Source of the DNA: Notolepis coatsorum
Lineage: Eukaryota; Chordata; Actinopteri; Aulopiformes; Paralepididae
Assembly (NCBI GenBank): GCA_963971535.1
Contig: OZ020587.1
Coordinates: 155,517,668-155,581,667, forward strand
Direction: 5' to 3'
Length of the DNA stretch: 64,000 nt
Below are positions 132-64,000 of the stretch, in pieces (position 1 is the stretch's first letter; each line of letters starts with the position of its first letter). The translations under genes were made by a program, and so were the position numbers. The notes under the pieces were generated by a model. It was not told the origin of the DNA. It did not search any database and saw nothing but the letters and a program-made list of their open reading frames with translations.

Positions 132-3299
<3,168 letters not shown>

Positions 3300-3364: not shown

Positions 3365-4006
3365 CCTACTGTTCTTATACAACCCACCTACTATTTTATT
3401 ATAATACAAACATCAGAGCACCTACTATTTTATTATAATACAACAATCAGAGCACCTACTATTTTATTATAATACAAACATCAGAGAACCTACTATTTTA
3501 TTATAATACAACCATCAGAGCACCTATTTTATTATAATACAAACATCAGAACACTTATTTTATTATAATACAAACATCAGAGAACCTACTATTTTATTAT
3601 AATACAACCATCAGAGCACCTATTTTATTATAATACAAACATCAGAACACTTATTTTATTATAATACAAACATCAGAACACTTATTTTATTATAATACAA
3701 CCATCAGAGCACCTATTTTATTATAATGCAAACAACAGAGCACCTATTTTATTATAATACAACCATCAGAACACCTATTTTATTATAATACAACCCTCAG
3801 AGCACCTATTTTATTATAATACAACCATCAGAGCACCTATTTTATTATAATACAACCCTCAGAGCACCTATTTTATTATAATACAACCATCAGAACACCT
3901 ATTTTATTATAATACAACCCTCAGAGCACCTATTTTATTATAATACAAACATCAGAACACCTATTTTATTATAATACAAACATCAGAACACCTATTTTAT
4001 TATAAT
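3365..4006. repeat. AT-rich minisatellite, units of about 27-34 bp
   Basis: Tandem copies of ATTTTATTATAATACAA followed by a variable CATCAGAGCACCT or CATCAGAACACTT part. Long units keep CTACTATTTTATT and short units lose the first CTA. It lies in the intron after the 3209-3298 exon and contrasts sharply with the GC-rich array on the other side of that exon. Confidence 0.93.
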
Positions 4007-4200
4007 AGCACCAGACAGTCAAACAAGGAACTGGACCGACAGACGAGCAAACCAGAACAGAAACTACAAGTAACTACACAGATAAACGTGTAACTAGACA
4101 GACGGGCAAAAATGCAACTGACGGACAAGCCACCGGATCAACGACAGGCAATCAAACCTACAGACATGCAACCGGACCAACGGACGAGCCACCAGAAGGG
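4007..4200. repeat. Degenerate tandem repeat of GACAGACGAGCAA-type units
   Basis: Loosely repeated segments such as CTGGACCGACAGACGAGC, CTAGACAGACGGGCAAA, ACTGACGGACAAGCC and CCGGACCAACGGACGAGC, each about 25-30 bp apart. Units are diverged and no coding pattern is visible. From 4200 to 4480 I see only unassigned intron sequence with a C-run near 4441. Confidence 0.55.
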
Positions 4201-4481
4201 GGCGGGCAGGCAGGCGGGCGGGGAGGAGGTCCAAGCTGCCGCTCCTCACTCAGGTGAGGCCTCGGCCCGATTATGCTTCAGCCATTCATTTCCCGGCTGC
4301 AGTCTGTCTGTCAGAAGATTGATTTGTCCATTTAACCTCCAGTGTGGCGAGTGATGGTCCATGTCAAATGAACAAGGGCTCTGCACTCACTTCCTCCAAA
4401 CAGGGTTTAGAGAGAGCAACAATACAAAGTGTTCTATCACCCCCCCCCACCACCCTGAATCATTTCCTGAAGAGATGATAG

Positions 4482-5133
4482 ATACTTGATGTAGATTAGA
4501 TTCTATTTCATTGTCGTCATGCAGCACAAGTACAACGAGAAAAGTGTGGCATCCAACCAGAATCCGACATTAATATACAATGTACAGGCGATTAAACTGG
4601 GTATAAAATATATAAATGAGTACTACTGAGTAACGGTGCTAATCAGATGCATGTACAGAGTTGTAGTATTAATACGCACAGTGATACAGGTATAAAGACA
4701 CTATGGTAGTAAGTCATACTGGCCAGCAGCGTAACTACTAAGAGTAGGTACAGTAAGGGATACAGATATATAGTATCTACAGATATGTAAAAAGGATTAT
4801 ATGCAGCTATGTACAGACGGATGTGGATATATATACACGGCATTATTATTGTACATGCTATCATACAGAGTTAAATGCAGGTCTATAAGTAGGTATATAG
4901 AAGAAATACATGCTCTACAGTTGGCTCTACTGTAGCTAATGGTTTTGAGTAGAAGTGTGACGATGCCTTGAATTGCTTTTCTAAAATGGCAAAGTGATTA
5001 ATCAATTCAATTCCTTGTTTCGTATTCATTGGGGAACATGGCAGTGTCACGTCATCACCTTGCATATTAAACTATATTTAAAACAATACTTGCGTACTAT
5101 AAACGTTGCTCGGGATTATCTTTTAATGTGATA
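4482..5133 (-). mobile_element. Interspersed repeat, probable Rex1/Babar-like LINE 3' end, - strand
   Basis: It begins with the T-rich motif ATTGTCGTCATGCAGCAC and AAGTACAACGAGA, typical of reversed 3' ends of fish non-LTR elements, and continues with a segment containing TAAAGACACTATGGTAGTAA. Related copies lie at 13182-13718 (near-identical from 4656 on), 20697-20765 and 21127-21428. No coding part is left. The class assignment rests on the tail motif only. Confidence 0.6.
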
Positions 5134-5260
5134 TTAACCCCTTCACTGCCACACGACAGAAGGTTAACCCTTTACTATCGCACATAGTAAAGGGCTAACC
5201 TTCTCTGTATTGTCACAGTGAAAGGGTTAACAGGCTGTCGTGTGGCAGTGAAAGGGTTAA
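5134..5260. mobile_element. TTAA-bounded palindromic MITE-like element
   Basis: It starts TTAACCCCTTCACTGCC and ends in the reverse complement form GGCAGTGAAAGGGTTAA, with a nested second inverted pair (TTAACCCTTTACTAT and ATAGTAAAGGGCTAA). TTAA at both ends is the target site of piggyBac-type elements, so a piggyBac-derived MITE is the likeliest reading. Partial copies are at 5931-6003 and 13671-13718. Confidence 0.6.
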
Positions 5261-5411
5261 AGGTGACTGCCCCTCCTCCGCCGCCTCCTGCTTTTCAGAA
5301 AACAAGAGTGGAATTGGGGTCAGGAGGGAAGGCCGGCCTGCCTGCCTCCTCCTCTTCACGCTTCCCCTTTCCAACTGCAAAGGGGAATGAAATGCAGCAG
5401 AAAAGTGTTTA

Positions 5412-5731
5412 AGTCAAGTCAAGTCAGTTTTATTTATATAGCACATTTACAAATGACTAACAGCCAAACCAAAGTGCTTCACAACATGGTAAAAAAAACA
5501 CATACAATGCAATAAAATACACTAGAATTACAAAAAAAGGTAAAGAGTACAGTACATATAAGAAAGCAAGGGCAAAGTGCAATAAAAGAGACAAGAAAAT
5601 TAGATAAAAAGTGCAGAGTGACAGCAGACGTCATGTATAGATGCTAGGCTAGCTCTGGTCACAAAGGCCAGGGAGAAGAGGTGTGTTTTGAGCAAGGATT
5701 TAAAAACCTGTAGGCTCTGGGCAGATCTTAG

Positions 5732-5762
<31 letters not shown>

Positions 5763-5925
5763 GCTGTTCCAGAGCCGGGGGGCAGCAGCAGCAAAGCCTC
5801 TATCTCTCCTGGTTTTAAGCCTGGTCCTAGGCACCTCCAGCAGCAGCTGGTCAGCAGACCTTAGGGCTCTGGATGGGGGGTGGGGTGATGCAAGAGCTCC
5901 GCTAGTAACGCCTTGACACAACGGT
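5412..5925 (-). mobile_element. 5'-truncated L2-like LINE fragment, - strand
   Basis: The + strand begins AAGTCAAGTCAAGTCAG and TTTTATTTATATAGCACA, the reversed 3' tail of an L2-type element. On the - strand, 5921-5700 encodes ALRSADQLLLEVPRTRLKTR followed by APRLWNS, the conserved C-terminal end of L2 reverse-transcriptase ORFs. A run of 30 G (5734-5763) sits inside the former coding part and breaks it. A related copy on the + strand is at 36270-36845. Confidence 0.75.
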
Positions 5926-5930
5926 ACTCT

Positions 5931-6003
5931 TTAACCCTTTCACTGCCACACGACAGCCGGTTAACCCTTTCACTGCCACACGACAGAAGGTTAGCCCTTT
6001 ACT
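5931..6003. repeat. Two half-copies of the TTAA element terminus
   Basis: TTAACCCTTTCACTGCCAC followed by ACGACAG occurs twice in direct orientation, then GGTTAGCCCTTTACTATC. This matches the left half of the palindrome at 5134-5260. The interval 5261-5930 between them holds the L2 fragment, so this may be the same TTAA element broken up by insertion. Confidence 0.55.
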
Positions 6004-6035
6004 ATCACACAACCGACGGCGATGCTCCATTAGCT

Positions 6036-6150
6036 CCGCAATTATAGTGGAGACTCAGTCAGAACCAAGTAGGCTGGTTATAGTGGAGACTCAGTCAGAA
6101 CCCAGTAGGCTGGTTATATTGGAGACTCAGTCAGAACCCAGTAGACTGGT
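6036..6150. repeat. Short tandem repeat, about 36 bp, three copies
   Basis: Three tandem copies of a unit containing GGAGACTCAGTCAGAACC and AGTAGGCTGGTTATA. The third copy decays into the foldback element that follows. Confidence 0.8.
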
Positions 6151-44886: not shown

Positions 44887-45086
44887 NNNNNNNNNNNNNN
44901 NNNNNNNNNNNNNNNNNNNNNNNNNNNNNNNNNNNNNNNNNNNNNNNNNNNNNNNNNNNNNNNNNNNNNNNNNNNNNNNNNNNNNNNNNNNNNNNNNNNN
45001 NNNNNNNNNNNNNNNNNNNNNNNNNNNNNNNNNNNNNNNNNNNNNNNNNNNNNNNNNNNNNNNNNNNNNNNNNNNNNNNNNNNNNN
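44887..45086. other. Assembly gap, exactly 200 N
   Basis: A run of exactly 200 N, so the size is likely a placeholder. The right edge falls inside a Rex1-like reverse-transcriptase sequence. Confidence 1.
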
Positions 45087-46700: not shown

Positions 46701-47333
46701 GATATTTGTAAATTAGACGGTTGGATAGCTACCTAAGCTTTGTGACATACTGTGCTGTTATATCATATTCACTGTTTGCAAACCTTATGCAACGCTAGCG
46801 ACCATAATGCCTGCTACTAGCGTAACATTAATACTTGTCAACAGCTAGAAAGATATTCAGATTCACAGGTGTTAATGTTGAAAACGCATGGAAACATTAA
46901 TAAATGCTCCTTATTTTTGTTTTATCTTTGGCTGACGGCCATGGTATAAGCGGTGCAATTCCCTTTGAGCCCACATTAACATATTTTAATGGTTTCGGTG
47001 GAGGCGACCGTCTCCACCTCGTCCATTAAAATATGTTGATGTACAGATCGTCTGGCATTATCCCTTACTTGAGAATGTCCTAAAACTGCCACTATACCCC
47101 CGTTTGTCTGTTTGTCTCTGAGCAAGATGGCTCAATCCAATATGATATCTCAAAGATGTCGTGTCAAACTGGATTGCCATCAAATTTGCGGTGAACATTC
47201 ATGACCACTAGAGGAAGAAACCTCTTGAAGCAGAAAAGTCTTACTTTTGAACGATTTGTTGGATTTGCAACAATTTGACAAATATCCTACTATATCAAGG
47301 ATTTGTGTGATTTGGCCTCATGGTGGCGCTATT
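46701..47333. repeat. Interspersed sequence with a strong hairpin at 46974-47041
   Basis: ACATATTTTAATGG and CCATTAAAATATGT form a 14-bp perfect stem, with GGTGGAG/CTCCACC inside. Around 47150-47330 the text (CCACTAGAGGAAGAAACCTC, GATTTGGCCTCATGGTGGCG) resembles the repeat at 63230-63700. Confidence 0.55.
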
Positions 47334-47791
47334 TTTTTTTATCTACTTTTTCTCCCCCTTTTTTCTGTATTGTTCTCCCATCCCAATTTAGTCGTTATGC
47401 CAATTCCCTTCCCTCCCTTCCGGGTTGTTGCGTGCATTTGCCCCCCACTTGCCCGTCTAGGGAGGGTTGATACTCCGATACATGTGGAGTCAGCCAGCCG
47501 CTTCTTTTCACCTGACAGCGAGGACTCTCACTGAGGGAGCGTAACACGTGGGAGGATCACACTACCTCCCCCAGTTCCCTTCCTCGCTGAGCAGGCGCCC
47601 CGACCGACCAGTAGGAGTCGCTGTTTACAACGACCAGGATACACATCCCACCGGCTTCCCACCCGCTAACACTGCCAATTGTGTTAGTATGGATGACCGA
47701 CCATGCCGGAGGTACCGCTGACAGCTGGATTCGATACCAGTGTATCTGCGGTGGTAGGCAGACGCTTAGTCCGCTGTGCTACCCAGCCGCC
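47334..47791 (-). mobile_element. tRNA-derived SINE (family B), - strand, 13-bp TSD
   Basis: TGGTGGCGCTATT flanks it at 47321-47333 and 47792-47804. A T-run and TGTTCTCCCATCCCAATTTA tail are on the left; the tRNA-like head with GGCTGGGTAGCACAGCGGAC, read on -, is on the right. Confidence 0.87.
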
Positions 47792-47844
47792 TGGTGGCGC
47801 TATTCACACAACTAAATACACAAAACATATCTAACTGATGGTAT

Positions 47845-48536
47845 ATACAGTTAGCCGTTAGTTCTCCAGCCGTTAGTTCTCCAGCAGTTAGTTCTGTAGC
47901 AGTTAGTTCTGTAGCAGTTAGTTCTGTAGCAGTTAGTTCTCCAGCAGTTAGTTCTGTAGCAGTTAGTTCTGTAGCAGTTAGTTCTGTAGCAGTTAGTAGC
48001 AGTTAGTTCTGCAGCAGTTAGTTCTGTAGCAGTTAGTTCTGTAGCAGTTAGTTCTGTAGCAGTTAGTTCTGTAGCAGTTAGTTCTCCAGCAGTTAGTTCT
48101 GTAGCAGTTAGTTCTGTAGCAGTTAGTTCTGCAGCAGTTAGTTCTGTAGCAATTAGTTCTGTAGCAGTTAGTTCTGTAGCAGTTAGTTCTGTAGCAGTTA
48201 GTTCTCCAGCAGTTAGTTCTGTAGCAGTTAGTTCTCCAGCAGTTAGTTCTGCAGCAGTTAGTTCTGTAGCGTTCTCCAGCAGTTAGTTCTGTAGCAGTTA
48301 GTTCTGTAGCAGTTAGTTCTGTAGCAGTTAGTTCTCCAGCAGTTAGTTCTGTAGCAGTTAGTTCTGTAGCAGTTAGTTCTGTAGCAGTTAGTTCTCCAGC
48401 AGTTAGTTCTGTAGCAGTTAGTTCTGTAGCAGTTAGTTCTGTAGCAGTTAGTTCTGAAGCAGTTAGTTCTGTAGCAGTTAGTTCTCCAGCAGTTAGTTCT
48501 GTAGCAGTTAGTTCTGTAGCAGTTAGTTCTGTAGCA
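47845..48536. repeat. 15-bp minisatellite, left part
   Basis: Unit AGTTAGTTCTGTAGC, with TCTCCAGC and TCTGCAGC variants, about 45 copies. It is interrupted by the DIRS-like element and resumes at 53354. Confidence 0.96.
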
Positions 48537-48539
48537 GTT

Positions 48540-48727
48540 CTATGACGTTAATGGATTGCTCAGCACCTGTTCTGCACTGTACTTCACTTTGTGCATGAGC
48601 ACTGAATAAAAAATTCCACCATGTACCTTTACCTCCCAACATCCGTCTGACCACACCCCCTTCCGCTTACCTTCATAAGCAGGTGTGTGGCCACCTACTC
48701 GCCTCCTTCTTCACTTTCACCACAAGG
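48540..48727 (+). repeat. Left inverted terminal repeat of the DIRS-like element
   Basis: It starts CTATGACGTTAATGGATTGC, holds CTGAATAAAAAATTCC and GTGTGGCCACCTACTCGCC, and ends CACCACAAGG. It is the reverse complement of 53137-53325 with few mismatches. Confidence 0.88.
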
Positions 48728-50873
48728 AAGTGCCTTCGGTAGATCCCCACTTGACGAGGTTGTTAGTAGAAGAAAGTTGGAAAACATCATATCTTTATTT
48801 TCTCTCTCACTATTTTCGAGAAAATACAGCAATATTGTCTTCGTTACTGGAGTGTCTGGGTCATTCCGACCTTCAAAGTTTTTTTCGTATTAGGAGCTCA
48901 CGCCGCTGACATGCTTCCCAACTACAATCCTCCTTGCTGCGGCTGGATGGGGTAAGACCCTCCAGCAACACAGCTGGACTGTAGGACGCACCGACTGTTG
49001 TGAGAAGCGGTGGTTTCCAGGTTGGGTATGTACTGTTTTGCTTGCGAGCTCTGGTTGTTGTTGATGCTATGGGGGTTACCTAACAATTTACGAAACGCCG
49101 ACCCCAGGCTAGGGTCCTCTGCTCGGCTTAAAACGGCGGTCGGAGGATCTTGGCCTGACGCCCATGATGGCTAATCTAGTGGCCCGCGCTAGGTTCTGGT
49201 GATCCCAGGATTCTAGAGCGGATGCTTCTCTGTCCCGTGTAGGCCCCATCTTTCATATACAAATGAAAGTTTACCCTAACGAGGAAATGTGGGCATAAGA
49301 TCTTCTTTATCGGAAGTTCCATGCTCAAAGGGCCCTGTGTGTGTCTGGATCACCGTTGACAACTGTGTTCTGACATTTCTTTTTCTTTTCCCTGTTAGGG
49401 AAGGGATTGGGACAGCGGCCTGTCTGAAGTGTGGCTTGTTATGTCATTGTATGCAGTTCAGGTGATGGCTGGTTAGCTTGCGTGCTAGTTGTGGAGCTAC
49501 TGTGTAGCCAGTCAGCTGTTAGCTGCGCAGCTGTTAGCTGCGGCGTTAGCTTGCTGTGTTTACCAGGCTGGTATACGTTAGCTTGTTGCTATCAGCCGAT
49601 CGGCTGTTAGCTTAATGCTACACTGTTGAACGTTCTGTGACTATAACATGCCTTAAACACTCTGACTACGACGTCATCTTTGACAGAGGATGTTAGTCGT
49701 ACCTACCGGGAGCCCGGCCGGCGAGGACTGCGTCAACATGGAGGACCGTAGCGGCTGGGTGGCGCAGCGACGCTGCCCTTGTCGTCGACACAGGAATGCT
49801 GTGTTTACCGTCGGTGCCCCGTTAGCCAGACTGCAGTTGGCTTGGCCTGCGCTCACGGTAGGAAGGTCCCGACCAGACCTTAAACACGTCTTCTTCCTTC
49901 CCTTCTAAATGTTTTGTAATAACGATGTTTTCCAAAACGGGTGTTGCTGCAATACATTTAGGATACGACGCGTGTTGTGTGTGAATTGTCTTGTTACTGG
50001 TATAGCTTCTCCATACAAATCGGGTTGTTGTTTACATGTGTAAAAATTATCTGGTTAGTTGTGTTGAACATCATGTGTGTTCATGTACCGTGAACTCACA
50101 ACTAAGGGGGTTAATTAACCTATAAAGCTATGCTTAGTGACATATGAGTGAAGAATGAATTATTTTCTCAGCCTGTAATGACAATGAACAGTGTGTTCAC
50201 ATATTAACAGGTTTACCTGTTCAACTGGGCCGTATCAAGGGTAAGGTAGGAGGGGTGTTCCCCCCGGTTCCCTGGGGCTTCCCCACTCTCCTCTCAGACA
50301 TGTTGTTTACAATATATTGTGTCACTGTGTTGTGGGGATACGATGTAACCCTTAGCTTAGTTACTGGGGTTGTGCTAAACCGCTTGAGAAACTATATTTT
50401 CCTAAAGAAATGATTGTTTGGTCGCTTTTCGTGTGTGCTTAGCAAGGCCTGTGGCCGATACTAATCGAGGATTCTGTATTCTCTCGTTATGAAAAACGGC
50501 GTTCCTCTGTAGCAAAAGTGTACTTGCCATTTTTTGTTGTGATAAAGGGTTGTGTGTGTCTTGTGATCTACAACTGGGTTAGGTTGGCCACAGAAGCACA
50601 TGTGTAAGTCTGGTACCGGGGCTCTTAAGGGGGCCCTCTCTATTCTGTGTTTTTTCCTTAGTAAAAATCAGATAGCAGGTTAGCACATGAGCTGTGTGAA
50701 GCTGTTAGACACTTCATGTAGCTGACTATGACTGTCATGCTTTTTTTTTTTTTTTTTTTTGTCATTACATCGTATCATGGGTGTGGGGTCGTAAAGGGGT
50801 GAACTGGTATTCCTTTCCTCCCCTTTTGATGGGCAGGGGTTAAAACCTCCTGTCCTTCAAGGTTCTTGTCACG

Positions 50874-53053
50874 TTGCTGTTCGGCACGTTACAGGGTAAG
50901 AGGGGGGGGGGGGGGAGGGAGTTTCCTGGTCCCACGCCCTGGAAGATTGGGCGTGTGCACCGCAGAAATTCCCCCGCCATAGAGTACGTCACTGTGCGCG
51001 TCTCTGTTGGTAAGACTTCCGTGAGTTGTGCAGGTCCATATGATGGATCTGTTTCAGGGAGTGGTCAGGGCTCCTCCTCACGAAGCTCCTACTCGGGCCT
51101 TCTGTGAGTTAGGACTCTCCTTCCCTGTGAGGGAGCCTCCTCAGAGTTCAGAGCCTCCTCCTCAGATTGTCAAGGTGAGTAGAACTTCAAAAAGGAGTCC
51201 TGCTCTATTGTGTGTGTATTCGATTCAATTCGATTATTGAGTGTGTATTGGTTCAGTGCCTCCTCCTCGGAGAGCCCTAACCCTAATTTACATAGCTCAA
51301 TGTTGCAATATATTCTTTTCAATCTATACAGCTCGCGTGGGAAGTCTCTCTGGGGATTTCCGTCTCCTCCCTATGGGAGGGTGGTGGGATGTAAAAATGT
51401 AAAAAGAAAATTACCCTCAGCTGTGTCACGAGGGATTCATGTCAGTCTGTGTTCTTTCTTTTTTGAATAAAAAGAGGAAGGTACATGAAGCACGATGGCT
51501 CCGTGTCGTTCTCCCAGGCAACTTGGAGGAACAATGTTTGGTGTCTTGTTAGACTATCCATTGATGTGTTTGGGTCTCATCTGGGTGGCGCCCTCTTTTC
51601 ATGTTTTAGATCGACACGCATACTTATCCCCTCTTCTGGAGTGGGCATGTCGGCGTGGTTAGGGCATGGGACTGGTTCTGGTCACGCTGGTCCAGGTCAG
51701 TTAACCCGTTGTCCGCCGGGGATGCAGATCTGCTGTTCTGGTACCCTGAGGGACTTGGGTTTTTTCAGGGGGAAAAAATGCTGGGTCGGCCCGGGGTGTC
51801 ACAAGGTTAGGCGTTATAGAGACCCTTGTTGGGTACTTTGTACCTGGCACTATCATGGGGGTTGGTTCTCCTTTTCTTCGCTCCTCTCTCACGCATGGCG
51901 AAGAGAGGGCTGTTGGGGTGGTCTTCTGGACCTCCTCTGGTAACCCTGTGTACTTCCCGAGCCGCCGGGGCCGGTCCGAAGTAAAGTTTCGTTGATACCG
52001 TAGGCCTGGGATAACCCTTTTTTGAAAACTGAAACACTTGTACTGCGGTATAGCCAGTGTATGCCCGCAGGTGTGTTTTGGAGTTTTTTCTTGAGGGGTT
52101 ATAGGAACAACCACCATCGGTACCAAGAGGGTGGTTGATTCCCTGGTGTGTTGGAGCAGTGTCAACTCCCGGGTTACCCGGTTGAGTGTGCCCCTGCACG
52201 TTCATGACTTCTGCCAATCATGTCAGCCTTCTCTGCCTCGACCCCTCTGGGTTTTTTTTTTTTAATGGAGGCTTTGTCATGCAACAACGCCAGCATACGC
52301 CCCTTCCGCCAGGAGGGCTGTTTTCAGCTGACTCCTTTGGCGCCTGTCTCATCCGCAGTGCTCCAGGCTCAGGTTACAGCCTGTTGCCTGGTTTCCCCGG
52401 TGCGCTACCTGCTTCCGTTGGTTAACCTTTTTGTGTGCTTACGGCCATGCTGTCTGCCTGTTCTGCAGGGTCAGTGTGCCAGGCGGTGTGCTATTGGGGG
52501 GAAAGGGCCCGCTCTTGGAGGGGCCTTATCCGAATACACTGGCGATGTGGGGGGCGGTGTCACTAAGTGACCACCTGGTGGGGTCTTGATGCCTGGCGTC
52601 ATTGACCTCTCCGGGCCCCCGTTTTCCAGGAGGTCCAGTCCCTTCAGTGGGTCTGGGTCTTCCTTCGCGCTCCGCTGCTACGGCCTTGCCACGGGGTTGG
52701 GTTTGCTCTTAAACCCCGTGATTTATGGGGGCAGTAACGAGGTTGTTCCTTCCGTTCCTTCCGTTCGTTCCCGGGTGGCATGCGTGTTGTGCGTGTGTGT
52801 AGTTGTGGGGTCAAGCCACGGTCTGCTCACCCTGTGCATTGAGTTGCTTGAGTGCCTCTTCGCACGGTCGGATCCGTCGCCCTCCCGTGAACCTCCAATA
52901 GGGGGGGTATCCTCCATTAGGGAGGGTCGGGGGGGCTCGGTCCTCCCCGGTCTGATGGTTGTGGGGGGCCTCAGCGGGGTACATTTGTCGGGCTATGGCT
53001 CCCGCTCAGCCCCTGTTGCAGAACAGGTGCTGAGCAATCCATTAACGTCATAG
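50874..53053 (+). other. Open frames inside the DIRS-like element, function unknown
   Basis: Frames at 50874-51107, 51485-51943, 52186-52425 and 52586-53053 (77-155 codons) lie in order on +. A Met-started stretch at 51042 reads MDLFQGVVRAPPHEAPTRAF and runs into a GTGAGT donor-like site at 51175. None matches a family I know and none has RT or recombinase motifs. They could be decayed gag-like remnants or chance. The upstream part near 49460-49640 is rich in GTTAGC words. Confidence 0.3.
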
Positions 53054-53111
53054 AACGAAGGGTTATGTATATAACCCAGTTCTATGAGTTAAATTGTGCG
53101 CTCAGCACCTG
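53018..53111 (+). other. Internal complementary region (circle-junction copy) of the DIRS-like element
   Basis: 53018-53053 is the exact reverse complement of 48540-48575. 53054-53056 is AAC. 53057-53111 is the reverse complement of the right terminus with two mismatches (AAATTGTGCG against AAATGATGCG). In DIRS elements this region templates completion of the termini and circularisation. Confidence 0.85.
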
Positions 53112-53136
53112 GACGCCGCTGCAGCCCTTGATCTCA

Positions 53137-53350
53137 CCTTGTGGTGAAAGTTTGGGAAGGAGGCGAGTAGGTGGCCACACACCTGCTTATGAAGGTAAGC
53201 GGAAGGGGGTGTGGTCAGACGGATGTTGGGAGGTAAAGGTACATGGTGGAATTTTTTATTCAGTGCTCATGCACGAAGTGAAGTACAGTGCAGAACAGGT
53301 GCTGAGCGCATCATTTAACTCATAGAACTGGGTTATATACATAACCCTTC
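53137..53350 (-). repeat. Right inverted terminal repeat plus 25-bp extension
   Basis: It starts CCTTGTGGTGAAAG and includes GAGTAGGTGGCCACACACC and AATTTTTTATTCAG. It ends with TAACTCATAGAAC and the extension TGGGTTATATACATAACCC. The extension is absent from the left end, as in DIRS1-type elements. Confidence 0.87.
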
Positions 53351-54735
53351 GTTAGTTCTGTAGCAGTTAGTTCTGTAGCAGTTAGTTCTGTAGCAGTTAG
53401 TTCTGCAGCAGTTAGTTCTGCAGCAGTTAGTTCTGTAGCAGTTAGTTTGTAGCAGTTAGTTCTGTAGCAGTTAGTTCTGCAGCAGTTAGTTCTGTAGCAG
53501 TTAATTCTGTAGCAGTTAGTTCTGCAGCAGTTAGTTCTGTAGCAGTTAGTTCTGTAGCAGTTAGTTCTGTAGCAGTTAGTTCTGTAGCAGTTAGTTCTGC
53601 AGCAGTTAGTTCTGCAGCAGTTAGTTCTGTAGCAGTTAGTTCTGTAGCAGTTAGTTCTGCAGCAGTTAGTTCTGCAGCAGTTAGTTCTGTAGCAGTTAGT
53701 TCTGCAGCAGTTAGTTCTGCAGCAGTTAGTTCTGTTGCAGTTAGTTCTGTAGCAGTTAGTTATGCAGCAGTTAGTTCTGTAGCAGTTAGTTCTGTAGCAG
53801 TTAGTTCTGTAGCAGTTAGTTCTGTAGCAGTTAGTTCTGTAGCAGTTAGTTATGTAGCAGTTAGTTCTCCAGCAGTTAGTTCTGTAGCAGTTAGTTCTGT
53901 AGCAGTTAGTTCTGTAGCAGTTAGTTCTGTAGCAGTTAGTTCTCCAGCAGTTAGTTCTGTAGCAGTTAGTTCTGTAGCAGTTAGTTCTGCATCAGTTAGT
54001 TCTGCATCAGTTAGTTCTGTAGCAGTTAGTTCTCCAGCAGTTAGTTCTGTAGCAGTTAGTTCTGTAGCAGTTAGTTCTGTAGCAGTTAGTTCTGTAGCAG
54101 TTAGTTCTGTAGCAGTTAGTTCTGCAGCAGTTAGTTCTGTAGCAGTTAGTTCTGTAGCAGTTAGTTCTGTAGCAGTTAGTTCTGTAGCAGTTAGTTCTCC
54201 AGCAGTTAGTTCTGTAGCAGTTAGTTCTGTAGCAGTTAGTTCTGCAGCAGTTACTTCTGTAGCAGTTAGTTCTGTAGCAGTTAGTTCTGCAGCAGTTAGT
54301 TCTGTAGCAGTTAGTTCTCCAGCAGTTAGTTCTGCAGCAGTTAGTTCCTGCAGCAGTTACTTCCTGTAGCAGTTACTTCCTGTAGCAGTTACTTCCTGCA
54401 GCACTTAGTTCCTGCAGCAGTTACTTCCTGTAGCAGTTACTTCCTGTAGCAGTTACTTCCTGCAGCACTTAGTTCCTGCAGCAGTTAGTTCCTGCAGCAG
54501 TTAGTTCCTGTAGCAGTTACTTCCTGCAGCAGTTACTTCCTGCAGCAGTTACTTCCTGTAGCAGTTACTTCCTGCAGCACTTAGTTCCTGCAGCAGTTAG
54601 TTCCTGCAGCAGTTACTTCCTGTAACAGTTACTTCCTGTAGCAGTTACTTCCTGCAGCACTTAGTTCCTGCAGCAGTTACTTCCTGCAGCAGTTACTTCC
54701 TGCAGCAGTCTTCCTGCAGCAGTTACTTCCTGCAG
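53351..54735. repeat. 15-bp minisatellite, right part, grading into a 16-bp unit
   Basis: AGTTAGTTCTGTAGC units run to about 54350, then 16-bp units AGTTACTTCCTGCAGC and CACTTAGTTCCTGCAG to 54735. The one-base longer unit appears abruptly and then dominates. Confidence 0.95.
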
Positions 54736-55430
54736 CAGTCCAGGCCCACGGTTGTGGAGCCTGATGGCCGCCGGCTGAGGACCGAGGAGGGCAGTGAAGC
54801 CGGTTGGGGGGGATTCTAGTTGAATCCTATAATCCATAGTTATCTTTAGCATTTTAAGAACTGAACATTCTAATGATGTAAACTAAAGGACCACTGGCCA
54901 TTTGAAGGCTACCATATAGAACTCTTTGAAGAAGGAAAAACACACACCTGAAAGGGTTCACCCTCGATGCAAGATGCAATTATCTGTTGTGAGATGCATA
55001 TTATTATTATCGTCGTTATTATTTCATTATTTTTTCTTTGCACCAGCAGGAGTTGGAGATCAGTGGGGAATAGAACACGGTTCCTCCCACAGACACAAAC
55101 CCTGTGAACCTCCTCTGCTCCCCCCTCTCTCTACTCTAATTGGCAGCGTCAGGTCGTGAGCTGGGTATCTGCTTCACCGTCCTCACACACATGAGCACGT
55201 TTACACCAGAGCCGGAGACAGAGCCAGAGACAGAGCCGTGCGCAGAGAACATACAGGAGATCCCCTCTCTCTTCCTCTACACAGGGCTTGGAATAACAGC
55301 GGTGGATGCAGACCAGCACGGCGACTTCAGACGTTGATCCTAGCATAAATTAATAGGGTTTATTATACATTGATTACGGGCGGAGAACCGCATGTTGTGG
55401 AAAGGCGGTCTTGCCGTGCGGTGGTGCAAA
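54736..55430. other. Unassigned sequence
   Basis: No gene recognised. An open stretch at 55140-55337 (with PEPETEPETEP) has no ATG start and ends at a TGA. It is preceded by an AATTGGCAG that could be a splice acceptor. I do not recognise it. Confidence 0.4.
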
Positions 55431-55701
55431 GGTCCTTTGTTGTCTTTTTTTTTTTGTAAACTTAAATTTTTTAAACATTTATAGACAAACAACACGACAT
55501 ATACAATAACCTCAACAACACTATTAAACAGACATAAATAATAAAGAAAAAATTGAATACCCAAAAGACGAAAAATTAAAAAAACTGACTTAAGCAAATA
55601 AAAAACATAAAACAGTTGTCATACCTTAAACAAAAATAAAATTAGAAAACATTAAGTGTGTGACATGGGTTCAGAGACCCTCTTTGAACCTCTTTCCTCC
55701 T

Positions 55702-56701
55702 TTACCATTCGCCCTCTTGTGGTGTATTTGGTTCTTCCTCTGTGATGTCGTTTTCGTTCCCCTTGTAATCCTCCCACTTTCCCCATCTTTCTCCAAATTT
55801 CTCTTCCTGTAACCTCAGCATGTGTGTTATCCTCTCCATATCATGTATCTCTTCCACTATTCCTACCCATTGTGCTATTGTCGGTGGGTCTTCCTTGTAC
55901 CACAGTCTCGTTATTGCTTTTCTGGCCGCTATCAACATTATCTTTATTAAATATTTGTCCCCCCCTTGTATTCCCTTGTGTGTCAGGTCTCCTAAGTAAA
56001 GCACCAGTCCTGTTTGTGGTAACCCGTATCCTAATATACTGATCATTGCCTCCCCTATCTCCTCCCAATACCCCTTCAGCTTCTGACATCCCCAGAATAT
56101 GTGCGTGTGATTTGCCCCCTCCTTCCCACACATCCTCCAGCATGCTCTTTGTGTTGGTGCATATTTTCCCTTCAGCTCTGGGGTTATAAAGAATCTGATT
56201 ATGTTTTTCCATCCAAACTCTTTCCATATCCTCGATCCTGTTGTTGAATGTTGCACCTCGCATATGTTCCCCCATTCCTTCCCTGTTATTTCTATCTCTA
56301 GCTCTCTCTCCCATTTCTCCCTTATGTAATCGGTCGTGTGTCCCTTGCTGTTCATTATAGCCCGGTATATTGCTGATATTACTCTTCCTTGCCCCCCTTC
56401 GTATGCCCATACTATCATCTTTATTATTCCATTCTGTTCTTCGTCTTTGGCCCCCCTTATTTCTTTGTTGTAGTAGTCTCTAACCTGTAGATATCTGAAG
56501 TGGTCCCTGTTTTCTAGTCCAAATTTCTCCTTTAATTTTTGTAGTGTCTGCATTTCCCCCTTCTCTATCATTTTGCATATCGCTGTTGCCCCCCCCCCCC
56601 CCCCCCCCCGTCTCCCACCTTCTGAATCCATGGTCTAACCTCCCTGGTTTGAATCTCTTGTCATGTGCTACCCATCTCAGAACCCCTGACTGCTTCTCCA
56701 A
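55702..56701 (-). pseudogene. L1 ORF2, C-terminal domain with Cys/His knuckle
   Basis: It reads SGVLRWVAHDKRFKPG, then, past a run of 21 C on + (56589-56609) that shifts the frame, KLKEKFGLENRDHFRYLQVR and CWRMCGKEGANHTHIFWGC (C-x2-C, then H and C), ending GEW and stop at 55702. It is homologous in layout to the C-terminal remnant at 42392-42859 but of a different L1 subfamily. The homopolymer may be an assembly error or a true mutation. Confidence 0.9.
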
Positions 56702-57980
56702 TTTGTGTGTTTTTACTACTCTATATGGTCAAGGTGCATTTGGTGATTGGATCTAATAGTCCCTCTTTTTCTTTAAATAGTTCCCTATCTCCCACCAGAG
56801 CTTGTACCTTGTATCCCTCCCCTTCTTTTTCAATGTCTTTCCATCTTGCCTCATATCTGTCGTTACACCAGCACGTCACTGCTCTCAGTTGTGCTGCATA
56901 GTAATAATCTTGTAGGCTGGGTACTGCCATCCCTCCCTCTTCCTTTGGTAGTTGTAGTGTTTTATATCTGACCCGTGGTCTTCTCCCCGCCCATATGAAC
57001 CTCGATATCAGTCTGTCCCACTCCCTGAATTGATTCTGTGGTATTTGTATCGGTAGTGACTGGAATAGGTACAGTAACCTTGATAGTATGTTCATTTTAA
57101 TGACCTCTATTCTTGAATTGAAGTCCAAGGGCATTACTGTCCATCTCTCTAAGTCTCTCTTGATGTTCTGATTTATCTGTGTATAGTTCGCCTCAAACAG
57201 TTTCTCCACCCCTCTCGTGATGTTCACCCCTAAGTATTTAATCTTGTCCATGTCCCATCTTATCCCGTACTGTTCCCTAATTTCCGTCGTTGGGGTATAG
57301 TTCCATGCTAAGGTCTGTGTCTTTGTCACGTTTAGTTTGTATCCTGAGTAGTGGCCATATTCCTTCAGTAGATCCATCAGTGCCGGGAAGCTCATGTATA
57401 CTATCACGTCGTCCGCAAATAGGCCTAGTTTATATTCCGTTCCCTTTATCCTTACTCCCTTAATGTCCTCGGTCTGTCTGATCAGTTGTGCCAGTGGTTC
57501 TATGAAAACGGCGAAGAGCGTCGGTGAGAGACAACATCCCTGTCTGGTAGCCCTCTCTAATCTGATTCTATCCGTCAAGCTGCCATTCACCTTAACCCTC
57601 GCTGTCGGTTCTTGATATAGCGCCTTGATCATCTTCATCGCCCTCCCGTTCAGTCCGAACCTCATCAATGTTTTATATAAAAATGTCCAGCTCACACTGT
57701 CGAATGCTTTTTCTGCATCTAGGCTAATCAGTACCGCGCTACCACCTTGTTTTTGTATCTCCTCTACTATGTGTAATGTCTTTCTCACGTTGTCCTGTGT
57801 CTGTCTCCCTTTAATAAATCCAGTTTGATCTTCATCTATAATGTCTGGCATAAACGTCTCAAATCTTTTTGATATTATCGATGTATACATCTTGTAATCC
57901 ACGTTGAGTATGGACACAGGTCTGAAACTACTACATAATTCTCTATCCTTCCCTTCCTTCGGTATCGTGGTGATTATGGC

Positions 57981-59618
57981 TACCCAAAAAATCTACGCCC
58001 GCTTGCCTCAACGACTACCGCCCTGTAGCCCTCACCTCCATAGCCATGAAGTGCTTTGAGAAGCTAGTGAAGGGCTACATCTGTTCCTCCCTCCCCATCA
58101 ACCTGGACCCCCTGCAATTTGCATATTACCCCAACAGGTCCACGGAGGACGCCATAGCCCATGTGCTGCACACAGCAGCATCACACCTGGACAAGAGGCA
58201 GGGGAACTATGTGAGAATGCTGTTCATCGACTACAGCTCAGCATTCAATACCATAGTCCCCTCCAAACTCATAGCCAAGCTCAGGGACCTGGGCTTGAAC
58301 TATGACCTCTGCCAGTGGGTCCTGGACTTCCTGACGGGCAGACCCCAGGTGGTAAGAGCAGGCAACTGCACCTCCTCATCCATCACGCTCAACATAGGGG
58401 CCCCCCAGGGCTGTGTTCTGAGCCCCCTCCTCTACTCCCTGTACACACATGACTGCGTGGCACAGCGGAACAACAACACAATCATCAAATTTGCTGATGA
58501 CACAGTAGTGGTGGGCCTGATCTCTGCCAACGACGAGAGGGCCTACCTGGAAGAGGTAGAGAATCTGTCACAGTGGTGTCAGGAGAACTGCCTCTCCCTG
58601 AACGTCAGCAAAACAAAAGAGATGATTGTGGACTTCAGGAGGTCGGGGGGTCAAGGACTACAGCCCCCTCAGCATCGACGGGGCACCGGTTGAGAGAGTG
58701 AACAGTTTCAAGTACCTCGGAGCCCACATATCCGAGGACTTGACATGGACCACACACATTGACAGTGTTGTGAAGAAGGCACGACAACGCCTCTACTTCC
58801 TCAGGCGCCTAAGGAAGTTCCAAGTCAGTCAGAAGATCCTTAGGAACTTCTACTCATGTACAATAGAGAGCATCCTGACTGGCAACATCACCTCCTGGTT
58901 TGGGAATAGCACTGCACAAGACCGTAGCAGACTACAAAGAGTGACACGTTCAGCCGAACGCACAATTGGAGGGGGGCTTCCCACCCTCCAGAACATTTAC
59001 AACAAGCGGTGCAGGGGGAAGGCTAAGAGAATTATTAAGGACTCGAGCCACCCGAACAACTGCCTCTTTGAACTGCTGCGGTCAGGCAAGCGATACCGGA
59101 GTCTTAAGGCGAGCACAGAAAGACTCAGAAGAAGCTTCTATCCCCAGGCCATCAGGCTGCTAAACGAACAATAAACACTATGCAACAACCATCAAATGCA
59201 CACAGCACACACACCCACACGCACACACTCACTTAAACCACACAAACACACTTTATATTTATTGATAAAGGATTTGCACTACAACTCGTACACCCACTGT
59301 AAATTGTACCTAAATTGCACCTCATCCCATTTCTGCCTTGCACTATATAGTATTGTATTAGTACACTGCACAGTATTGTATATTATATGGTAACTCAGTT
59401 ACGTCTATTCTGCATCGAACATTGTACATATGTCTATACTGAACACTGTGACCTAATTTTTTTTTTTTTTTACTTCTAATTTACATGCTATACTATGTTA
59501 TTTTATTTCATACTTATCTTGTCTTGCACAGTCTCTGGAGCGTAACAGTAAGAAGCATTTTGTATAAAAGTATTCTGTACTTCTGTATGACAACTATTAA
59601 AGAAACTTGAACTTGAAA
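57981..59618 (+). mobile_element. 5'-truncated Rex1-like LINE nested in the L1
   Basis: It begins at TACCCAAAAAATCTACG inside the ORF and ends TTAAAGAAACTTGAACTTG. Flanking L1 sequence resumes on both sides with no visible TSD (GATTATGGC left, CTCCTTCCACG right). The 3' UTR (59175-59618) has CA-rich and T-rich patches. Confidence 0.88.
57983..59174 (+). pseudogene. Rex1-like reverse transcriptase, truncated and frameshifted
   Basis: The frame is open from 57983 ([19 protein letters not shown]) through 58046-58693. RT motifs in order: [61 protein letters not shown] and [19 protein letters not shown] single-base shift in the G-run near 58648 moves the rest to 58626-59174 (YLGAHISEDLTWTTHIDSVV, RLYFLRRLRKFQV and the thumb/C-terminal part ending NEQ). 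This is the Rex1/Babar pattern of fish. The endonuclease and the RT N-terminus are missing. The copy is young-looking apart from the one shift. Confidence 0.93.
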
Positions 59619-60111
59619 CTCCTTCCACGAGGGGGGCATTTTTCCCTCTTCCATCGTGTGTCTGAACGCCGCCCCTAACATGGGTGCTAATTCCGTTCTA
59701 AATGTCTTGTAGAATTCCGATGGGAATCCGTCGCTCCCCGGAGACTTGTTGTTTTTAGCTCTACTAATTGCCTCTTCCAGTTCTCGTTCCGTAATTATTT
59801 TATTTAATTCTTCATTCTGTTCTTTCCCTATCGATGGTAACTCTAGCTTCTCCAGATATGCTTCTATTTCCTCTTCTCCCGCTGCTTTTGGCTGTGTGTA
59901 TAGTTTCTCATAGTATTCTCTAAATGTCCTCTCTATTTCAGCTGGGTCTCTCAATATTTCATTAGTCTTTATATCCCTTATTGTGTGTATCGTGTTCAAC
60001 TTCTGTTGCGTCCTAATTCTCCTAGCCAACAATCTGGTCGCTTTTGGTCCCCCTTCATAGTACGTTTGTTTCATGAACCTCGCTTTCTTTTCTATTTCCG
60101 TCAATAATTCC

Positions 60112-61293
60112 CTATTTATCCTGGCCTTTACTTCTTTGATTTCTCCGAGCGTTTCCTGTTCTTTTGATATCTGGTGTCTCCCCTCTAGCTTCTTCAGCTT
60201 CCTTCAGATTGTGATATGTCTCCGTTCTGGCCTTCTTCAGCATTGCTGTCTTCTCCATCAATTTCCCCCTTATCACCACCTTCAGTGTGTCCCATAGAAT
60301 GTTCGGATCTACCGCCCCGTTGTCATTTTCTTCCTTATACCTGGCTATCTCCTCCTTGATCTGACTCACCACCCCCTTGTTATTTAATATTCCTACATTT
60401 AGTCTCCAGATCGTGTTCCTCCGTCTCCCTTCTAGATCTACTGTCAGATATATGGCACTGTGATCCGATATGTCCGCTACTCCTATTCTGCTCTCCCGTA
60501 CCCTGTAACTGTCCCCCGTCGTCATCAAAAAGTAGTCTATTCTCGCATATGTCACGTGCGGGTGTGAGTAATGTGTGTATTCCCTGTCCATGGCGTGCAT
60601 CCCCCTCCAAACATCTGTAATTCCCATTTCCGTCATCTGAATATTCATATATCTACTGATTGGTGCCCGTCCTTTTCTAGTACTCGTGGTGTCTACAGTA
60701 GGTCGTGATTCAGTACTACATTAAAATCTCCCGCGCATATCAATATCCCTTCTAGTTCCATCACTATCATATCAAAAATGGTCTCATATAAATCCCTCTC
60801 ACTCTCTGGGGGTGCATAAACATTCACTAACGTAATCATTTGACCCTCCATTTTTCCCTTCACCAGAACAAACCTTCCCTCCTTGTCTCTTACTTCCTTG
60901 ATCAATTCAAATTTGACTGTTTTTGATTAACGTGATTACTCCTCTCCTCAGGTTCCGTTTAAAGGAACTATAGTATGCATTTTCATATCCAAATCTCTTC
61001 AGTTTCTCATGATCCTGTGCTACCAAATGTGTCTCCTGCAGGAAAATCACTTCCATCTCACTTTTTTTACACTTCAACATCACTTTGCCCCTCTTTATCT
61101 TATTATTCATTCCATTAACGTTTAACGACATCATTTTTATACCTTTAACCATTGTCATCTTTCTTCTTCTTTCGTCAGTCCCCCCCATGTCACATTCATT
61201 CCCCCCTCCGGTTGTAGCCTCCGCTCTCTTCACCGAATACATATAATGATTAACATAAATAAAAAACATAAACTTTACATAAAGTGCTCCCAA
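60112..61293 (-). pseudogene. L1 ORF2, apurinic-type endonuclease domain, frameshifted
   Basis: The domain nicks target DNA to prime reverse transcription. Visible parts: KMMSLNVNGMNNKIKRGKVM and VIFLQETHLV (61293-60907), LVNVYAPPE and CAGDFNVVLNHD (60905-60693), then YARIDYFLM and ADISDHSAIYLTVDLEGRRR (60648-60112). The catalytic-type residues N, E, D-N and H of the APE family are present. Single-base shifts lie near 60907, 60693 and about 60190, so it no longer reads through. The real start is probably one of the Met residues just before GIKMMSLNVNG. Confidence 0.9.
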
Positions 61294-61984
61294 GGCGTTC
61301 GGGGGGTCCCTGTGTCCCCCCTGTCCCCTGCTGGTGGGTGAGGAGTAATTGCTCTCCTAGTGAGAGGCCTCCTCCTGACGGCTTGGGGGTTTGAAACCTT
61401 TACCCCCAACCGCTCGTCATATTTGTCCAGCATTCTTACTGTTTTTATTGCTGTCGAGCTCCTGGTCAAAAGCGCTCTGTCCTTCATTCTGATCAAAGAC
61501 CCCCATTTCCTAGGTCCCTCTCAATGTGGCTCATATGTTCCAATGTCCCTCCTTCCTCCCAAACCCGTGTGTGGTGTCTTCTGTGTACCCCTTTTTACTT
61601 TCTTTTCCTCCTCTCTATTTTCTATGTGATGTCCATTTATCCCCTTAATCCCTTCCAACTGTGTTACTCGCAGCGTGTGTCTATGTATTTGTTTCAATAT
61701 ATTCTGTGTTCCGTCTATCATACCTAATTTTATTTCCATTTATTTCCTCCATCATCATGTGTATTATGTGTCCATGTACACGTTATGTTCGTTCCTATAT
61801 CCTGCCTCTACCTGGGAATGTGTGTTTATGTATATGTTATTTCAGTTTCTATATTTTGTCTCTATTTGGATAGTTTTTTCAATCTCTTGTGCGTGTACTC
61901 ATCCGTTCGTCTCCTCCCGCCTCCTCTCCTCTCCTTCTCCGTCTCTGGCCTCCTCGTCCGTCTCCGCCTTCGGTCTGTCACGTC

Positions 61985-63094
61985 TCACCTCGGCCTTCTC
62001 CTCTCTCCTCCCTCCTCTCCCGGGTTTCGATCTCCTACTCTGGTCCACCTGCGTGCTTTCTCCAATCTCTGCTGCAGGCTCCGCGTCTGGCCCTCCTGTC
62101 CCCTTCCTTCTCCGTCCTCCGCCATCTGCATCCCCCGTCGCCTCATCTCCTCCGCCGCCTCCCGCGCCGTCGCGTACGTCACCGTCCCTTCCTTCCAGTG
62201 AATCCTTAGCGAGGTCATGGGTGATTGGAATTTCATTCCGTTTTCTTTCAGAATTCTCTTCAGTCCCGCGTAGGACCTGCGTGTTATTGCTACCGCTGTC
62301 GAGTAATCGTGATCAAACGACAGTCTTTTCCCCTCGATTTCTATCTTCTTGGTCCACGCGGTTCTGAGTATCAATTCCTTAATCTCAAATCTCAGAAAGT
62401 TAATAATCACCGCTCTCGGAGGTCTGTCCGGTTGCGGTCTCGGAGCCAACGCCCTGTGGGCCCTCTGTATCTCCATTTTTTCCAGTCCCGTCTCCTTCAG
62501 TTGCTCTTTGATAAGCTTTTCCACATATTGGATCACCGATTCCCCTTCGACTCCTTCTTTCAATCCCCATATTCTGATGTTATTTCTCTGTGACCTCCCC
62601 TCCATGTCCGATATCTTTGTCTCCATCTGTTCTTGTTTTTGAATCGCACACGTTAACACCTCGTGTATCTCTGTGTTCCATTCCTCCATTTGTGCCGTTC
62701 TAGTCTGTACCTCTGTTACATTTCTGTCCTGTTCCGCCATCTTCTCATCCACCCTTTTGAGTTCTGTATTCATTTCACCTCTGAAGTCCTCCTGTTCCTT
62801 CCTCAATTCCTCCCGTAACTTCCCAATATCATTTCTTATCGTGTCCGAGTTCAGTTTTATGGTCGCCTGCATCGTGTCAGAGTTCAATTTTATGGTCGCC
62901 AATATCCCGGCCTGCATGAGCACGGCCCATCCTGGCATTTCCTTGTCCGTCTCAGCCGAGACTCCCCCTTCCTCCGCCTGCTCCTTCTCGGTCTCGCCTC
63001 GGGGGTTCTGCTCCATCGAACTCTCCTCTTCCTGTGAGTTCTCCATTTCTCTTTCCTTCATATTTGTTTTCTCCTCCTTCCTTCTCGTTTGCAT
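61985..63094 (-). CDS. L1 ORF1 protein (RNA-binding chaperone), intact frame
   Basis: 369 codons from ATG to stop. L1 ORF1 proteins coat element RNA as trimers and are needed for retrotransposition. Seen here: an acidic/polar N-terminus (1-55); a heptad-rich coiled coil about 65-165 containing a direct duplication of ATIKLNSDT (66-74 and 77-85); an RRM-like domain from about 171 (RNNIRIWGLKEGVEGESV) to 255; and a C-terminal domain with WTKKIEIEGKRLSFDHDYS and RRSYAGLKRILKENG, which matches the Transposase_22-type ORF1 family. A basic tail follows. The start is 116 bp from the element end, a short 5' UTR. An intact ORF1 beside a frameshifted ORF2 means the copy could not move by itself. Confidence 0.9.
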   Translation of the reverse strand: MQTRRKEEKTNMKEREMENSQEEESSMEQNPRGETEKEQAEEGGVSAETDKEMPGWAVLMQAGILATIKLNSDTMQATIKLNSDTIRNDIGKLREELRKEQEDFRGEMNTELKRVDEKMAEQDRNVTEVQTRTAQMEEWNTEIHEVLTCAIQKQEQMETKISDMEGRSQRNNIRIWGLKEGVEGESVIQYVEKLIKEQLKETGLEKMEIQRAHRALAPRPQPDRPPRAVIINFLRFEIKELILRTAWTKKIEIEGKRLSFDHDYSTAVAITRRSYAGLKRILKENGMKFQSPMTSLRIHWKEGTVTYATAREAAEEMRRRGMQMAEDGEGRGQEGQTRSLQQRLEKARRWTRVGDRNPGEEGGERRRPR

Positions 63095-63226
63095 CTTGAT
63101 TTTTGATCTCTTTTCGTCACTTTTCGGGTCTTTATTTCTCAGTTTTTCGCTCTTTTGACCAGGAGCCTCACCTGTGCGTGTTACTCTTCCGCTCTCATAC
63201 CGGAAGTCTCGGTCCTTTGTTGTCTT

Positions 63227-64000
63227 AAATGATTAGGGATCCTTCGTCTTGGGGTCACGAATGTGCGAAGATTCTGAGGAAAGCTGTTAGGAGATACGCT
63301 AATGTGAACATTTTACATTTGGCCTGATGGTGGCGTCAGAGGAAAGGTGATGGGGGGGGGGGGTGTCACCAAAATCAATAGGTTTCTTCCTCTAGGGATC
63401 ATGAATGTGCAGCGCAAATTTGAAAAGATTGCAATGAAAGCTTTTCGAGTTACCGCATTCACAAGTGCGCTGTTTGGCCTAATGGTGGCGCTAGGGAAAA
63501 GGTCATGGGGTCACCAACATCGCAGGCCTCCTTGCTATGATAAGGCAAATATATTTGTCATGTTTGGTGGAAATTGTATCAGGATTTTATCAAGTATTAC
63601 ACTGAGCATTGGGATTCTTCTTGGGGTCACGAAGATCTGCTATAGTCGGGGTAAATCATATTTAAGTTGGGATATAAATACCACCTGACTGGCATGCAGA
63701 AACCTTTAGAGAAAGTCGAGTATAAACAACTTAGTGACTACCTGAATAGATACAAAATATTTGACAATTCTCCATTTGAATCCTCCATGCCATCCTCATT
63801 GACCATCTTACAAGTTATCTAAGCTTGCCTCCAATAGATCAGACAGACAGTTTTCAGTTGGTGTAGGTAATTCAGTTTCCACCCCTGCACATATGAAGTG
63901 CGATGTGCCTGCCACAAGGCTCTATTCTTGGCCCAATATTATTATCATTCTACATGCTTCCATTAGGCCATATTATCCATAAACGCAACACAAAATCCAC
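63227..64000. repeat. Interspersed repeat with recurring GATGGTGGCG motif
   Basis: GGGTCACGAATGTGC / ATCATGAATGTGC and TTTGGCCTGATGGTGGCG / TTTGGCCTAATGGTGGCG recur with a spacing of about 150 bp, together with GGGTCACCAACAT. This resembles a widespread fish repeat and matches part of 47150-47330. From about 63700 on no structure is recognised. The open frame 63347-63688 is not a known gene. Confidence 0.5.

Follow-up and report, generated by a model that had tools for sequence, protein, structure and literature searches.

The 64,000-nucleotide (nt) stretch of the Notolepis coatsorum genome analysed here, referred to throughout as the window, carries a 15-nt minisatellite that is interrupted by a complete element with DIRS1-like ends and a non-coding interior (Table 1). 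Its inverted terminal repeats (ITRs; 48537-48727 and 53137-53328) are 94.8% identical by self-comparison, each diverging in its outer part and conserved further in, and an extension follows the right repeat only; the left end has none. Upstream of the right repeat lies an internal complementary region, a 95-nt stretch that in reverse complement reads [right end]GTT[left end], in which the copies of the joined ends overlap on the trinucleotide. The chance expectation for an exact 40-nt match in this region is about 2e-17, and since the outer parts of the two ends differ, each half of the internal region is specific to its own end. An earlier note, drawn up from the letters of the window, had described this region as the reverse complement of the left end, AAC and the reverse complement of the right end, and had placed a 25-bp extension on the right end alone. 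Both observations hold at the level of single bases (40/40 and 56/58 matches; 53329-53353, 25 nt including the GTT), as do its coordinates; when the edge GTTs are counted in, the element spans 48537-53353 and the internal region starts at 53017. Split direct repeats of the form A1 ... B1 A2 B2 (Ngaro, PAT, VIPER) were not found in the element: its long terminal and internal matches are inverted, and the direct-oriented matches within it (83% and 80%) are explained by the inverted ends.

Table 1. Parts of the element and of its target array, in window coordinates.
Feature	Position	Strand	Remarks
Complete non-autonomous DIRS-like element, type A	48537-53353	+	4817 nt including both edge GTTs
Left inverted terminal repeat	48537-48727	+	Outer ~20 nt divergent; 152-nt core with 1 mismatch to right repeat
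Left edge GTT (target / circle-junction trinucleotide)	48537-48539	+	
Right inverted terminal repeat	53137-53328	-	
Right extension	53329-53353	+	25 nt including GTT; contains 18-nt near-palindrome (16/18 positions)
Internal complementary region, left half	53017-53056	-	Reverse complement of 48537-48576, 40/40
Internal complementary region, right half	53054-53111	-	Reverse complement of 53296-53353, 56/58
AAC, circle-junction trinucleotide on + strand	53054-53056	+	Overlap of the two internal-region halves
Non-coding interior	48728-53016	+	Tested part 48733-53016
5′ module common to types A and B	48537-48779	+	243 nt; copy comparison
3′ module common to types A and B	51580-53353	+	1.77 kb, about 89-99%; copy comparison
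More diverged 5′ part of shared 3′ module	51316-51576	+	71-75% to type B; copy comparison
Deletion site	51578-51580		~258 nt missing in window copy, present in the references of both types used for comparison
15-nt minisatellite, left part of target array	47852-48539	+	
15-nt minisatellite, right part of target array	53351-54739	+	In phase with left part across one GTT

Joining the two flanks with a single GTT restores the 15-nt periodicity of the array at 146 of 150 positions, compared with 83-100 of 150 for the 16 other join offsets tried. A search of the host genome (3.42 Gb, 4787 contigs) with the left repeat returned 2620 first-look candidates, which are not confirmed copies; 40 were scored, all at 97-100%, and comprise the window copy, 20 copies taken as stretches of up to 10 kb and 19 taken as left flanks of about 200 nt. 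GTT, which lay outside the query, stands directly at the left end of all 40 (counted by coordinate for 39 copies, plus the window copy), and these occupy 38 distinct sites, two pairs having the same flank. Both flanks could be compared in 16 copies, namely the window copy and 15 of the 20 stretches (L021, L022, L026, L034 and L040 were dropped as gapped, cut or lacking a right end). GTT is present at the right end of 15 of these 16; the exception, L024, is cut short on the right and so cannot show a target duplication. In the 16 copies no target-site duplication extends beyond the GTT; the exceptions are three matching nt in L038 and, in the window copy, the repeat of the array itself. Insertion at a trinucleotide without duplication of the target, read earlier from the GTT at both edges of the window copy, is thus seen across the copies, and no longer duplication emerged among them.

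One 30-nt minisatellite hosts seven of the 38 distinct insertions (L023, L029, L037, L039, L050, L052, L055), always at its GTT and oriented alike; for four of the seven the right flank was available too. Two motifs of the 30-nt unit account for 6 and 14 of the 4474 GTTs in 121,720 background bases, and the 6 all lie inside the L023 and L029 loci themselves. Judged against these background bases, and not against genome-wide satellite abundance, the insertions point to a target preference.

The interior of the window copy bears no mark of coding function. A six-frame Pfam search of the element (E<=5) gave one domain of unknown function at E=0.24, while the same procedure, as a positive control, found two reverse transcriptases (RTs) elsewhere in the window at 5.5e-39 and 3.5e-28. 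Open reading frames (ORFs) for RT, RNase H, methyltransferase or tyrosine recombinase were not found in the six frames of the window copy, in agreement with the earlier observation that no RT or tyrosine recombinase is visible. The longest stop-free run in the interior, 166 amino acids (aa), is attained by 84 of 300 shuffles (mean 154), and there is no period-3 coding signal: period-3 power is 0.12-1.04, against 3.2-10.2 in the long interspersed element (LINE) ORFs of the window. The interior ORF at 52571-53050 had no match at E<=1 among 274 candidates from the protein collection. Rfam returned four matches up to E=1 on 47000-56000, all in the minisatellite and below the gathering score, and a tRNA search of the whole window found none. 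Pattern searches gave 11 viral-contig matches for a 17-nt pattern, none in viral contigs for a 20-nt ITR pattern, and one match in bacterial and archaeal genomes for a 19-nt pattern; plasmids gave no match. The matches obtained are isolated, 17-24 nt long and in the extension only, and were taken as chance. Positions 49737-50036 are CpG-rich (observed/expected 1.04, compared with 0.86 and 0.23 in the adjoining bins) and might represent a host-derived promoter.

The same interior recurs elsewhere in the genome. Eleven of the 20 copies in long stretches share it with the window copy and are here called type A (L021, L024, L026, L027, L031, L032, L033, L037, L038, L039, L040); several are truncated, deleted or interrupted, and the less disturbed ones measure about 4.8-5.6 kb. 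The non-coding interior is common to other type A copies at about 90-99%, and type A is therefore a non-autonomous family and not one decayed element. With the interior as query, the host genome yielded 2855 first-look candidates, and 40 of the 42 matches listed are at 97-100%. A copy at 81% is located inside L029; the history of type A therefore comprises more than one wave. The remaining nine copies form type B (L022, L023, L025, L028, L029, L030, L034, L035, L036), L022 being assigned by its 5′ part only. Their common ground with the window copy is limited to element positions 1-243 and, where reached, a 3′ part from about position 2780. The 5′ module of 243 nt matches the nine at 97.5-98.5% (L030 over 205 nt only), and the shared 3′ part matches at 71-75% up to position 3040 and at about 89-99% from 3044 on. 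The earlier picture, drawn from a single copy, stands as a reading; the sister type with an ORF in the gag position, the shared 3′ part and the deletion of ~258 nt in the window copy were not in it. In L032, an insertion at 3511-6093 within the type A copy holds an 861-aa ORF, and what appear to be 9-nt repeats of element sequence flank it. By eye, the RT matches in L022 resemble those of LINEs, and they were set aside.

In L036 and L035 an ORF of 561-562 aa directly follows the shared 5′ module. Its length is attained by none of 200 shuffles in L036, and likewise in L035, and period-3 power reaches 7.6 and 6.5. In type A, by comparison, no first (gag) ORF above chance was found: 119 of 200 shuffles attain the ORF length of L027 and 39 of 200 that of L038, and the highest period-3 power in any one 600-nt stretch, 2.7 and 2.1 respectively, falls between the values of the window copy and the gag-ORF peak. 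A genome search with the type B ORF gave 17393 first-look candidates; 78 were scored, at 88-100% identity, and 49 of the 78 are without stops. Three of the 78 that were newly taken (L060, L061, L062) have the same layout, with an open ORF of 558-565 aa. Over the ten pairs of five open ORFs, which were picked for being open, the ratio of nonsynonymous to synonymous divergence (dN/dS) is 0.29-0.66; it is 0.29-0.44 in nine of the ten, 0.29-0.37 for pairs with dS >0.1, and 0.66 in the closest pair, with dS up to 0.21 overall. By this measure the type B ORF is under purifying selection. The sense-strand frames after the ORF in L060 and L061 have no Pfam match up to E=0.1, and RT, RNase H, methyltransferase and recombinase were not found in the type B sense-strand frames covered (L025 whole, the 5′ 3 kb of L036, and L060 and L061 after the ORF).

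We take the type B protein to be a putative gag by its position and by a presumed likeness to DIRS gag; no credible database match names it. None of 7992 scored entries of the protein collection reached E<=0.001, and the protein has no profile match. A LacI regulator, the only PDB match with E no higher than 1, has E=0.19 and is not credible; a profile built from four sequences gave 41 PDB matches with E no higher than 10, the best at E=0.063. Light chains of antibodies make up most of the 41, which were taken as chance. The LAP2alpha domain is reported in PMC4495291 as derived from DIRS1 gag; none of the 41 PDB profile matches is so named.

An alternative that concerns type B only is that an autonomous family outside the sample gave rise to the gag-only copies by deletion, time and again, and that the purifying selection on their ORF took place in that family. 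The copies read were top-scoring ones, only three of the 78 scored being newly taken, which leaves room for such a family. L036, L060, L061 and L062, with dS reaching 0.21, nevertheless share the gag-then-noncoding layout along their length, which speaks against this account because independent deletions would not give it. We regard it as a tentative possibility, somewhat less probable than not.

Comparison of the diverged type B copies bears on the role of the 3′ module. The non-coding half differs by 6.6% between L036 and L062, by 2.1% between L061 and L062 and by 4.5% between L036 and L060, against synonymous gag divergences of 0.21, 0.123 and 0.078, respectively. Exclusion of CpG-like contexts leaves the pattern intact for L061/L062 (module 1.5%, all gag sites 3.9%) and weakens it in the pairs of L036 with L062 and L061 (module 3.7-4.6%, gag 5.2-6.3%). 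Measured against L036, the module is less diverged than the terminal 250 nt in L061 and L062, where these differ by about 11-14%, and more diverged than the ends in L060, where these differ by only 2-3%. Constraint, module exchange by template switching, or a fast-changing gag could each account for the low divergence of the module. Because the module is less diverged than synonymous gag sites in the pairs examined and, relative to L061 and L062, than the ends, it might be a functional RNA or DNA signal; a scheme in which the abundant gag-only type B, its capsid-like protein kept under purifying selection in the absence of pol, supplies particles, the non-coding type A rides on it and the shared 2-2.7 kb 3′ module is that signal is conceivable, and we consider it rather doubtful. 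At the right extension of L062 (5125-5200), inspection by eye suggests that the palindromic layout of the window copy (53329-53353) is kept despite different letters. Such a layout would seem to suit a putative recombinase binding site.

The internal complementary region was compared with the ends of each copy. It is complete in 12 of the 16 copies with both flanks, so the internal junction is no secondary peculiarity of the window copy. Six of the 12 match their own ends without difference and five with one or two differences; the 25 differences in L024 are due to its cut right end. In L030 one G-to-T substitution is present both in the internal region and in the right end, and it occurs in no other of the 12 copies compared, which is what templating of one from the other would predict, in this one case. 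In the other copies aligned, changes are on one side only, as expected of mutations after insertion. In the window copy, ends and internal region differ at 2 of 98 positions and the ITR cores at 1 of 152, and the copy is therefore young; as a young copy without coding trace, it moved while already non-coding. RNA folding shows that the internal region can pair with the right end along the greater part of both (-160.5 kcal/mol, z -11); this pairing follows from their complementarity and does not by itself prove function.

The reading we favour, at a probability of about 0.88, is that the window element is a copy of a high-copy, wholly non-coding, non-autonomous retrotransposon family that keeps the DIRS1 cis signals. 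Types A and B are best read together as a two-tier non-autonomous DIRS system. The proposal of the earlier note, a non-autonomous DIRS derivative with ITRs, internal region and extension kept, gains support from the anatomy and from the interior shared among copies. Of the circular integration model that it invoked, the junction anatomy and the single GTT stand; the internal copy of the junction may be read as the trace of a circular DNA intermediate with one trinucleotide, the circle itself being our deduction. RNA would be made from the left repeat, and RT, RNase H and tyrosine recombinase would be supplied in trans by an autonomous DIRS relative, a mobilisation that we infer because young ends sit on a non-coding body. 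The internal complementary region would act as template or splint, restoring both ends and joining them into a circle with one GTT, and the recombinase would then cross this GTT with a chromosomal GTT, giving insertion without target-site duplication.

Several observations weigh against this reading. Four of the 16 copies with both flanks are without a complete internal region. L030 stands alone, and at that position L035 carries another substitution, which is confined to the end. The type B protein is without credible match in Pfam, PDB or the protein collection. The autonomous relative that had been envisaged was also not found: no partner with RT or recombinase and these ends appeared in the searches made, none of which was specific for DIRS RT, and a search of the host genome for the Dam family gave no candidates. 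The phage-integrase family gave 18 matches in the host genome. Eight of these loci were examined (L063-L068, about 3.2 kb each; L069 and L070, 8.5 kb, L070 with 2366 N), and none has DNA similarity to the window element or to two type B copies. Comparison with the type B protein gave, in three of the eight, nothing beyond 26-residue matches at E about 1. In L064, L065, L069 and L070 the related ORFs look Crypton-like, and L069 has an RT that looks Penelope-like.

As to where the type A interior came from, it could be captured host DNA, for example a gene promoter with an intron, an origin compatible with the favoured reading. The AT skew of -0.24 and the CpG-rich stretch (49737-50036, observed/expected 1.04) are gene-start- and intron-like. 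Set against this, a skew of such size also occurs in 2 of 98 other window stretches, there is no protein match, and no host locus with the interior sequence was identified, the 40 best matches being as far as one was sought; capture of this kind seems to us unlikely. We give still less credence to an element, whether DNA transposon or Crypton-like, that has inverted repeats and is mobilised by a recombinase with no RNA stage. RT was found in neither type, and recombinase ORFs reaching 419 aa, Crypton-like in look, exist in the genome; both points suit such an element. It would, however, have no need of an internal junction copy, a one-sided extension or agreement of each internal half with its own end, and the eight recombinase loci are dissimilar in DNA to the elements. 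Gene decay in a formerly autonomous DIRS element after it had inserted, a history suggested by the ordinary fish-type DIRS1 termini, is highly improbable, as ends and ITR cores differ by about 1-2% and yet the interior has no domain, long ORF or period-3 signal; decay of one autonomous copy was rejected on the presence of the same non-coding interior in other copies at about 90-99%.

Among described elements, close parallels exist in fish. PMC3266345 gives the trinucleotides of fish DIRS1 elements as GTT/GTT/AAC (GTT/GAT/AAC in TnDIRS1a), with extensions of 26-27 nt and internal halves of 36-46 and 56-57 nt, and the window element comes close in size with an extension of 25 and halves of 40 and 58 nt. 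It resembles the DrDIRS1 group as described there (GaDIRS1, GaDIRS2, TnDIRS1a) in its GTT edges (GTT and GAT in TnDIRS1a) and AAC junction, in ITRs that are divergent outside and conserved inside, in its right-only extension, in an internal complementary region near the 3′ end and in the lack of target duplication (PMC3266345). Unlike fish DIRS1, the window element has no gag, RT, RNase H, methyltransferase or recombinase ORF that we could find, and its interior is family-wide non-coding sequence. The label fish-like comes from its termini; by coding criteria the element falls outside the autonomous DIRS1-like superfamily, and by its ends it works like a member.

In PMC6681497, SIRE of Trypanosoma cruzi is presented as a non-autonomous version of VIPER (DIRS order) with terminal sequence kept, its mobility being left open there. 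The family of the window element is likewise read as a non-autonomous relative within the DIRS order that keeps terminal sequence. SIRE is a few hundred nt long and comes from a split-direct-repeat element, unlike this family with its about 4.8-5.6 kb, inverted repeats and large non-coding interior. Among plant long terminal repeat (LTR) retrotransposons, LARD elements have a large non-coding interior and TR-GAG elements gag only, both with intact termini and in need of a helper. Type A can be likened to the former and type B to the latter, with the difference that DIRS ends and a recombinase route take the place of LTR ends and integrase.

No description of large non-coding or gag-only DIRS families was met in the literature searched, which lay outside Repbase and most subscription papers, and neither "non-autonomous DIRS" nor "nonautonomous DIRS" was met as a phrase in the searchable literature. 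This is slight evidence of novelty, and we claim no priority. The part played by the DIRS internal complementary region is so far deduced from anatomy. An element that has multiplied although it has no genes shows what is enough in cis, and since changes can be followed in the ends and internal regions of its many copies, the templating model becomes testable from sequence. The element is also a small, naturally occurring construct with which DIRS transposition could be studied when the proteins come in trans.

Elsewhere in the window, a run of 200 N at 44887-45086 is probably an assembly gap. A 39-nt minisatellite at 189-3161, of about 76 units, has long open frames on both strands that are probably meaningless. 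A minus-strand LINE occupies 55702-63232 (RT at 5.5e-39), with a weak ORF1 match (E=0.016) that suggests an L1-like type; another LINE RT, in the opposite orientation, splits it at 57974-59174.

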